64,000 nucleotides of DNA from the NCBI GenBank assembly GCA_024398055.1, contig CP073749.1:4774594-4838593 (forward strand), written 5' to 3'. Origin of the DNA: a bacterium SCSIO 12741. Lineage in GTDB: Bacteria; Bacteroidota; Bacteroidia; Flavobacteriales_G; Salibacteraceae. Of the stretch, positions 41,233 through 42,857 are shown piece by piece. Numbering within the stretch: position 1 is the stretch's first letter; each line of letters opens with the position of its first letter. The position numbers and the translations under genes were made by a program. The notes beneath the pieces are model-generated. The model did no database searches and was not told the DNA's origin. It worked only from the letters and a program-made list of their open reading frames with translations.

Positions 41233-41608
41233 AAGCATCCGGCAATTAGAAAAGAAGTGAGGTGAGTGCGAAGAAAAATTAGTTCCGGGTCCTCGCAAAG
41301 CGAGTGTGAGCACGAGAAGCGAGGAAAATTCAGCATGAGTCTTCGCACTTTCGCGCTCATACTCACACTGAATTTGTACGGAGGACGAGACTACTCTCGA
41401 ACCATTTTTAACTTATATTCAGGAGGTCAAGAACTTGAAAGGGGAGGTTGAGGAGTGTTGGATTGAATTGGTTAATTTAGTTTTAAACTGAGCAGTATTT
41501 CTATTGTTGTGGCCAAATTTTAATATTCGATAACCTGCTTTATGTACAATGAAAATAACATCATGTTGTTGTACATATGTAGTGGTGCATTAAAAGAAAC
41601 CTATAATC
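41233..41608. other. Intergenic region with structured repeat copy A
   Basis: About 375 bp without a supported gene, leading from the zinc-ribbon gene into an AT-rich patch. It holds copy A of the 61-bp hairpin element (41319-41379), an adjacent GA-rich heptad-like tract (41271-41318) and a small dyad CGAGA-CTAC-TCTCG at 41387-41400. Frames here of about 60 codons are low-complexity and not believable. Confidence 0.5.
41319..41379 (-). repeat. 61-bp structured repeat, copy A
   Basis: Read on the minus strand it begins GTAC, then a 14-pair stem (AAATTCAGTGTGAG with CTCATGCTGAATTT, two G-U pairs) encloses an inner hairpin GCGC-GAAA-GTGC, followed by TTTTCC-type bases. It shares 57 of 61 bases with copy B at 42718-42778. 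The four differences are all transitions; they keep the inner stem pairing and change the loop from one GNRA tetraloop to another, as expected for a selected RNA structure. Confidence 0.85.
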
Positions 41609-42205
41609 TTGAATAAGTCGCTTAAAATCTCAATCATATTATCAATCGTCTTTGTCGGACTGATTAGACTTAGACCTATATGGGAGAGAAATCCAGGCGG
41701 ACTTTGGAATGTCATTTTCTTTATAGCGATTGCAGCACTTTTCGTTTGGATTTCAATCAAAATCCTTATTGAGGTAGTTATGGTTATTAAAAATCGAAAA
41801 GCTCTAAAATTGATTTCATTTCTACCAATAGGAATCCTTCTATTCGGACTACTTGACGGAGTGTACAATCCACTGAGATTAAACCTTGAAAATGTCTATG
41901 GTGACGTGACATTTAGAGCTTGTTTTGAAGGTACTCAGAATCAGGCAACTTTTAAATTAAGAGAGCCTGATAAATTTGAAATTCATTGGACGGGCGTATT
42001 TTTCTATGATGAATTCTTCGTTGGTACTTACTCTAAAAGTGGCGACACTCTTCTTCTCGATTATAAAGGAAAGAAGCCTAGTCGATTTGGAAAAAAGATT
42101 TTAATGGATAAAGAAAATGAGACTTTACAGACCATTCGCACTGAAAAGGATAGTTTAGAATACGTTGTTCCGTTCTACTATGGATACTGTAAAGGATTAA
42201 ACTAA
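41609..42205 (+). CDS. Uncharacterised membrane protein in an AT-rich patch
   Basis: A 198 aa protein starting with TTG (MNKSLKISIILSIVFVGL). It has three hydrophobic helices in the first 85 residues and then a mostly beta domain outside the membrane (YGDVTFRACFEGTQNQATFK, IHWTGVFFYDEFFVGTYSK). No family is recognised. The base composition is clearly more AT-rich than in its neighbours. It lies between the two structured repeats beside tRNA-Leu, so it was probably acquired by transfer. Confidence 0.6.
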   Translation: MNKSLKISIILSIVFVGLIRLRPIWERNPGGLWNVIFFIAIAALFVWISIKILIEVVMVIKNRKALKLISFLPIGILLFGLLDGVYNPLRLNLENVYGDVTFRACFEGTQNQATFKLREPDKFEIHWTGVFFYDEFFVGTYSKSGDTLLLDYKGKKPSRFGKKILMDKENETLQTIRTEKDSLEYVVPFYYGYCKGLN

Positions 42206-42717
42206 GAGAAGATAAAAAACGACACCACAACAATGTATAGGAATCATATCCGCCTATCGGAGGCTACGCTTCATATACTAAATGTTACAAGCAATTAGAA
42301 AATCAAGATGTTGAATTTGTTTAAGAAGAAAACCGAATTAGATGTTTTTGAGAAAGGAATATGGCTTTCTCGAAAATGACTTTGGTTATGGTCTAATGAC
42401 AAAAGAAACTCAACCTCGGCATAGTTTATTCCCTGCGGTCATGAGATCGCTTCGCTAAGTTGCAACTAAGGCGAAACTATCATTAAGGTTCAAATACACA
42501 TTTTCAGGAATAGAATCAGCTAATTTGCACAATCGCCTCGAACCTGCCCGATACGCAGACTGCAACAGAAGAAAATAAAGATTTTCCAAGATCCAGTCTC
42601 GTTGTCTTAGTGTCTTTGAAAGGAAGAAATCGGAAGAAACCAATCAGCGATGATTGAAAGCAGGTCTTAAGCTCTGGAAAGTAGAAAGTGAAAGTTAGAG
42701 CGAGTTTGAGTGCGAGT
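42206..42717. other. Gene-poor AT-rich stretch with a possible gene remnant
   Basis: About 510 bp without a convincing gene. At 42308 an ATG opens 23 codons that look like the start of a real protein (MLNLFKKKTELDVFEKGIW) and then hit TGA, suggesting a decayed gene. A GA-rich tract with 6-7 base periodicity occupies 42696-42717. No promoter or terminator is clear apart from the hairpin element that follows. Confidence 0.45.
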
Positions 42718-42778
42718 GCGAGGAAAATTCAGCATGAGTTTTCGCACTCTCGTGCTCACACTCACACTGAATTTGTAC
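42718..42778 (-). repeat. 61-bp structured repeat, copy B, at the 3' end of tRNA-Leu
   Basis: Second copy of the nested-hairpin element, with inner hairpin GCAC-GAGA-GTGC. It starts inside the last three bases of tRNA-Leu (42776-42778) and runs downstream on the tRNA's strand, ending with a T4 run. It can therefore act as the tRNA's terminator or as a processing/insertion site. See copy A for the comparison. Confidence 0.85.
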
Positions 42779-42857
42779 CAGAGGTGGGATTCGAACCCAC
42801 ACACCCGAAGATACACGTCCCTGAAACGTGCGCGTCTACCAGTTCCGCCACTCTGGC
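42776..42857 (-). tRNA. tRNA-Leu (anticodon CAG)
   Basis: An 82-nt type II tRNA. The acceptor stem GCCAGAG/CTCTGGT (one G-U pair), D-arm GGCGGAACTGGTAGACGC, anticodon stem CACGT/ACGTG around loop TTCAGGG (anticodon CAG), a long variable arm closed by a TTCG loop, and T-arm GGGTTCGAATCCC are all present. The discriminator base is A. CCA is not encoded: ACA follows, so CCA must be added after transcription. The 3' end abuts the structured repeat copy B. Confidence 0.95.

Follow-up and report, generated by a model that had tools for sequence, protein, structure and literature searches.

The twin hairpins beside tRNA-Leu(CAG) in the bacterium SCSIO 12741 are most probably two copies of the intrinsic (Rho-independent) terminator of this tRNA gene, each with the last four tRNA bases, and as such would mark both ends of a ~1.4-kb cassette that entered between the gene and its downstream flank. 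The two halves of this reading stand together, and we hold them jointly with good though not full confidence. The argument is one of anatomy and not of movement: it draws on the position of the hairpin behind tRNA genes, its duplication, a tRNA-like end directly inside one copy, end modules common to several units, and the recurrence of the arrangement elsewhere, all of which are observed.

Anatomy of the insert

The window, a stretch of 64,000 nucleotides, contains two copies of the element at 41319–41379 and 42718–42778. They are identical at 57 of 61 positions and lie 1,399 bp apart from start to start, as in the original prediction of two 61-bp copies, 1.4 kb apart, with 57 bases in common. 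That prediction had also placed the start of one copy within the last bases of tRNA-Leu and the other copy at the far edge of an AT-rich patch. Both placements agree with the data: copy 2 has 42775–42778 in common with the tRNA gene, and the GC content is 0.34–0.35 between the twins versus 0.42–0.45 in the flanks. The features of the region are as follows.

41264–41297, minus strand: 3′ half of a tRNA-Leu(GAG)-type terminator, 31/34 identical
41319–41379, minus strand: copy 1, GTAC and the second terminator-like hairpin; outer stem 41326–41375
41376–41403, minus strand: degenerate tRNA-Leu 3′ end; a palindrome at 41386–41399 replaces the T-loop; ends in GTAC
41404–41608: left module, common to both units at locus L009; the unit at locus L010 shares just its start
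41609–42205, plus strand (opposite to the tRNA): cargo ORF of 198 aa with a TTG start
42500–42717: right module, similar by alignment to the right-hand parts of the units at L009 and L010 (U2 row partial)
42718–42778, minus strand: copy 2, last four tRNA bases (GTAC) and the terminator-like hairpin; outer stem 42725–42774
42775–42857, minus strand: intact tRNA-Leu(CAG) (ARAGORN; Rfam RF00005, 50.4 bits)

Read along the tRNA strand, the proposed cassette would thus run from the intact tRNA-Leu through the copy 2 terminator, the right module, the cargo ORF (on the other strand) and the left module to the degenerate tRNA-Leu 3′ end with its hairpin T-loop, and then through GTAC and the copy 1 terminator into the chromosome. 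The degenerate end directly inside copy 1 reads GGTTCGAGAGTAGTCTCGTCCTCCGTAC on the tRNA strand. Only 1 of 500 shuffles scored as well as this end, which is matched best by tRNA-Leu(TAG) and not by the adjacent Leu(CAG); the hairpin in place of its T-loop was equalled by 3 of 200 shuffles. Beyond copy 1, the half terminator of tRNA-Leu(GAG) type suggests more than one event at this site.

The 198-aa cargo ORF has no family match in Pfam, PADLOC or NCBIfam, and a search of viral contigs gave no confirmed relative. Neither a recombinase nor a nuclease was found in the insert, and the genome's three matches to PF00589 (tyrosine recombinase) all lie outside it. When an empty site was sought by synteny, the flanking genes were not found beside tRNA-Leu in the fetched relatives. 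Behind the cargo ORF, a palindromic stretch at 42216–42290 looks attC-like by eye; consensus scans gave no support for it.

Hairpins as probable tRNA terminators

Folded alone (the tRNA being on the minus strand), each copy forms a 15-pair outer stem enclosing a 4-pair inner stem with a GNRA loop. The folds have z-scores of −5.28 and −5.79, and for either copy none of 200 shuffles was equally stable. The inner stem and its loop are therefore as first described, and the outer stem has 15 pairs instead of the 14 then given. With a longer flank in the folding input, the predicted pairing shifts to a GA/CT-rich tail, so alternatives to the nested fold exist. The copies differ at positions 20, 26, 30 and 39 of 61 (tRNA strand), all outside the outer stem, and one difference alters an inner pair from A-U to G-U, a one-sided change. 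Thus the covariation-like sign of selection claimed for the inner GNRA hairpin is weak, and the two copies by themselves say little on selection. An Rfam search of the window reported the tRNA alone at the gathering score, and a terminator-type scan with a loop limit of 8 listed neither copy.

To place the hairpin among its peers, the tRNA genes of the genome were located and their 3′ flanks read for hairpins. A terminator-like hairpin lies within 70 nt of 27/40 tRNA genes in this genome and 34/35 in fetched relatives, as against 26/375 shuffled flanks. Like an intrinsic tRNA terminator, copy 2 is a stable hairpin with an A-tract and a T-run, directly behind the tRNA and on the same strand, and it would be expected to terminate transcription in the cell; it departs from the usual form in its long 15-pair stem with an internal loop and in occurring as two copies around an insert. 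A hairpin model, R1, was built from eight sequences chosen by eye from tRNA 3′ flanks and the copies. Seven of these sequences lie immediately downstream of tRNA genes or at tRNA ends that have been displaced. Across this alignment, in which one row (Ala) is two columns out of register, 95.4% of the outer-stem cells are paired, with two-sided changes in 7 of 14 pairs; slid-alignment controls gave 24–52% pairing. It is accordingly the outer stem that covaries across the hairpins of several tRNA genes, and conservation does not centre on the inner GNRA hairpin.

Run against its own genome, R1 returned 21 rows at E 0.1, nine of them above 50 bits. These nine places lie behind tRNA-Leu(GAG), Leu(CAG), Arg(CCT), Arg(CCG), Val(GAC) and Ala(GGC), at copy 1, at a tRNA-like remnant in L009 and at a gene end in L011; eight are training sequences and so are matched by construction, and L073 is the sole new place among the strong matches. 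Seven places are new at E 0.1, three behind tRNA-Leu(TAA), Met and His and four (L075, L076, L077 and L073) without a tRNA. At E 0.001, 8 of 35 family genomes match, source genome included, and the matches outside the source genome owe nothing to the training set. Among 11 loci in those genomes, six abut tRNA-Leu (five) or tRNA-Arg (one); the rest comprise a second copy beside tRNA-Leu(CAA), one locus 148 nt from a tmRNA, and three without an RNA gene. Further copies, on which the original prediction hung, are thus present both here and in related genomes. Of the identities originally suggested (a mobile terminator-like repeat, a processing signal or an insertion boundary), the terminator and the insertion boundary find support: the hairpin occupies the usual place of tRNA terminators in this genome, and its second copy marks the far side of an insert. 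It is not mainly a free mobile repeat, as the better matches lie mostly at tRNA 3′ ends or displaced ones and the inner GNRA hairpin is not what is conserved.

The matches away from tRNA genes would suit a dispersed REP-like repeat that sits at some tRNA genes by chance: besides the four in this genome, there are weaker ones at L088, L091 and L093 elsewhere. Such a repeat would, however, hardly begin at the tRNA's own last bases, as the duplicated block does, and most other listed tRNA-Leu genes of the family have terminators that are unrelated in sequence and occupy the same place. We consider this reading highly improbable.

Sister units in the same genome

The end modules recur, whole or in part, in three further units whose cargo is different: two stand in tandem at L009 and one is at L010. 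The L010 unit lies at tRNA-Leu(GAG), and its alignment covers only the first part of the left module. The L009 units stand beside a tRNA-like remnant (0/500 shuffles as good) whose best match is Arg(CCG), followed by Leu(GAG). One of the cassettes carries, at L009:7503–8941, an ATPase ORF that a second ORF overlaps; both match PADLOC HEC-04 and are possibly one broken gene. L009 cargo also includes a DUF4760-like ORF, below cut-off. In the test for a tRNA-like end, 2/500 shuffles did as well as one L009 unit and 14/500 as well as the other, a weaker result, and the ends at L010 (77/500) and two ends in genome G023 (367/500 and 84/500) were not significant. A T-loop hairpin clearly beats its shuffles in one of the four units, that of the window. 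The inner L009 unit has an unrelated hairpin in the same place relative to GTAC. By eye, two of the four left ends, those of the L010 unit and of the outer one at L009, show no hairpin there. A search for the left module in 40 other genomes yielded no more than short, weak matches, in three of them. A portion of this module (TTAATTTTAGG..AAACTAAACTGTACTTC) is also found ahead of other genes at L021:1500–1560 and 2870–2950, with no tRNA nearby in view; it is perhaps a promoter or regulatory site there.

These units bear on whether the cassette might instead be the shrunken remnant of an ordinary integrase-borne island in tRNA-Leu, with its integrase lost and its ends decayed. A tRNA with a displaced tRNA-like end in the right orientation is what such an island would leave, and the same genome offers an integrase-bearing parallel at tRNA-Arg(ACG): an apparent 18-kb island whose far end consists of 17 exact tRNA-Arg(ACG) bases, then a terminator-like hairpin. 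This island is likewise a parallel, within one genome, for the displaced tRNA end and terminator of the cassette reading. We nevertheless judge a remnant rather unlikely, since three more units share the end modules around different small cargo and contain no recombinase, the genome's three tyrosine recombinases, one of which belongs to that island, are >30 kb from every unit, and other tRNA-Leu genes of the family also have small units that lack an integrase.

The tandem arrangement and the variety of cargo also recall integron-type cassettes with attC-like sites, and L009:7378–7508 has an attC-like appearance by eye. We rejected this reading, which is barely plausible: the best integron-integrase match reached 78.6 of 265 bits, under the cut-off, a strict attC scan found no site in the cassettes, and a relaxed scan matched background loci too.

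Recurrence at tRNA-Leu in the family

Of the 74 RNA genes tested, six, all of them tRNA-Leu, are followed by a second tRNA end plus terminator, the repeated block starting at the tRNA end; the sample is rich in tRNA-Leu because these loci were fetched on purpose.

Own genome, the tRNA-Leu of the window
Own genome, tRNA-Leu(TAG): three units of about 131 bp
G023, tRNA-Leu(CAA): repeated unit with an S23 gene in between
G014, tRNA-Leu(GAG): further copies 237 and 486 bp on
G043, tRNA-Leu(CAA): repeated unit present
G005, tRNA-Leu(CAA): repeated unit present

The test also picked up a 34-nt match at the G009 tmRNA, starting just past the gene end; at L032 and L191 it gave short matches from which the end of the gene is missing. 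Within the genome of the window, the preference for tRNA-Leu amounts to 2/4 tRNA-Leu versus 1/31 others (Fisher p 0.029), a count that omits tRNA-Leu(TAG), whose locus is too short.

Two relatives contain nucleases in this setting. The G005 insert has a 96-aa GIY-YIG ORF (PF01541, E 6.3e-9) between two tRNA-Leu 3′ end copies, in which the T-loop is replaced by TCCCGATAGCTATCGGGA or a near copy. At L216 (G004:C35:53500–57764), five GIY-YIG ORFs follow one another in tandem with periods of 364–409 bp in an array that reaches the contig end, and behind each ORF stands a tRNA-Leu-like 3′ end whose T-loop is palindromic.

Of 82 matches to S23-type four-helix-bundle genes (TIGR02436), 74 were examined, and six of these (L011, L094, L169, L098, L162 and L089) follow a tRNA or tmRNA of like orientation at a distance of 121–285 bp; a rough chance estimate is about 0.15. 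As a cause of terminator doubling they were rejected: only in G023, one of the six, does a second tRNA end and terminator lie beyond the S23 gene. In G009, a second hairpin is found between the tmRNA and the S23 gene.

Palindromic tRNA-end mimics across the collection

A scan for the pattern GGTTCGTCCCGATNNNNATCGGGACC, which covers one palindrome type, in one genome per species across 84,980 species gave 68 matches in 54 stretches; these are not all independent events, as one locus can sit under two records (L245 and L269 look alike). All have Bacteroidota titles, going by their genus names. For 52 of the 68 mimics, a same-strand tRNA ends <1000 nt upstream (27 Leu, 9 Ala, 8 Cys, 4 Val, and one each of Lys, Met, Glu and Ser); none has an opposite-strand tRNA within 1000 nt downstream. 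Because the pattern contains GGTTCG...CC, it partly presupposes a T-arm-like context, but it does not presuppose a location behind a matching tRNA. In 48 of these 52 cases, the bases that follow the palindrome match the 3′ end of the local tRNA with an alignment score of at least 12 of 16; the other four score 5–8. The DNA behind the tRNA and that behind the mimic are near-duplicates in 23/44 testable pairs, versus 32/1860 cross-locus pairs, and a terminator-like hairpin lies behind 41/65 mimics. Of the 16 mimics that lack a tRNA, at least ten are close to a contig or locus end (within about 260 bases) or belong to the L268 array, itself at a contig end. A GIY-YIG ORF ends <120 nt before the match in 22/68. 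The T-loop palindrome pattern had 0 matches in viral contigs.

The window cassette follows the order tRNA, terminator, cargo, tRNA-end mimic, terminator, and the surveyed loci are of the same design. It has no GIY-YIG ORF, its cargo being without a Pfam match, and a search of its genome for the TCCCGAT-type palindrome with up to 2 mismatches gave no match, the window having a different, shorter palindrome. Its likely membership in the GIY-YIG class is for that reason one of architecture.

The survey also speaks to another account of the doubling, in which the tRNA 3′ end and terminator were duplicated in tandem and later filled with unrelated DNA, without any mobile cassette. Precedent exists in the E. 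coli tyrT repeats and RtT RNA, where repeats behind a tRNA include its 3′ end. The window repeats resemble these in lying behind a tRNA and including its 3′ end, and short-spacer copies occur at the genome's own tRNA-Leu(TAG), at tRNA-Leu(GAG) of G014 and in Mucilaginibacter (five copies). The window differs, however, in the cargo ORFs between its copies. Rfam reported the tRNA alone at the gathering score in six related loci, as in the window, with no match to RtT. Shared end modules at three sites with different cargo, and GIY-YIG ORFs directly before so many mimics, argue further against tandem duplication, which we find improbable.

Proposed mechanism and wider reading

Under the cassette reading, the tRNA 3′ end would serve as the cassette's site. 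After insertion the tRNA would keep an intact 3′ end and a terminator, copy 2 being the one that serves it, and the other terminator, copy 1, would be left at the cassette's far side. The insertion was presumably site-specific, and the cassette would have been moved by an enzyme acting in trans. Our preferred candidate for the mover is a GIY-YIG cut followed by recombination, the alternative being a tyrosine recombinase in trans; the GIY-YIG nuclease in sister cassettes suggests that the T-loop is cut and the break repaired from a cassette that has tRNA ends on both sides.

More tentatively, and with less than even confidence, we propose that Bacteroidota have an integrase-free system of tRNA-anchored cassettes, stacked behind tRNA genes, chiefly tRNA-Leu, and bounded by mimic and terminator ends. 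Each cassette would end in the 3′ third of the local tRNA, its T-loop turned into a palindromic hairpin, and then a terminator, whereby the host tRNA would stay intact and terminated. Autonomous cassettes would encode a small GIY-YIG nuclease that cuts the T-loop, and others, that of the window among them, would ride along with unrelated cargo: an unknown membrane-like protein, a defence-like ATPase, an S23 protein. In its working, such an array might resemble an integron anchored at the tRNA 3′ end. Should this pattern hold, the tRNA 3′ ends of Bacteroidota would be home to arrays of tiny cassettes that go with a nuclease, not an integrase, and would provide a new and directly testable route of gene capture. 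Within the library and terms searched, literature titles and the opening lines of abstracts contained no description of Bacteroidota tRNA-end cassettes with GIY-YIG.

Among known systems, GIY-YIG homing endonuclease elements are akin to the related Bacteroidota cassettes, in which a small GIY-YIG ORF lies between the tRNA and the mimic; the cassettes differ in that none was seen inside an intron or intein, and that of the window has no nuclease. Tycheposons, as described in PMC10872708, likewise place cargo next to a tRNA gene; they span 4–200 kbp and have a tyrosine recombinase, and the window cassette shows neither that size nor that enzyme. It shares with the tRNA-targeted islands of the Islander type an intact tRNA and an insert, and its tRNA-like end, with Leu(TAG) and not Leu(CAG) as best match, may correspond to their displaced tRNA 3′ fragment in the same orientation, but it measures only about 1.4 kb and is without an integrase. 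According to the Islander paper (PMC4383910), its filters discard candidates <2 kb or without an integrase; doubled terminators behind tRNA genes would therefore be a readable scar of small insertions that such an integrase-based island finder rejects.

Displaced tRNA ends of other kinds were also noted. At L012:4831–4905, a displaced tRNA-Leu(CAA) 3′ end has a long palindromic insert in its T-loop; its fold is no better than that of shuffles (48/200). Several near-identical terminator-like repeats occur at L172:200–660 by an integrase and a displaced tRNA-Arg(ACG) 3′ end. At L038:1750–1800, a displaced tRNA-Pro(TGG) 3′ end with a hairpin behind it indicates that the habit extends beyond tRNA-Leu.
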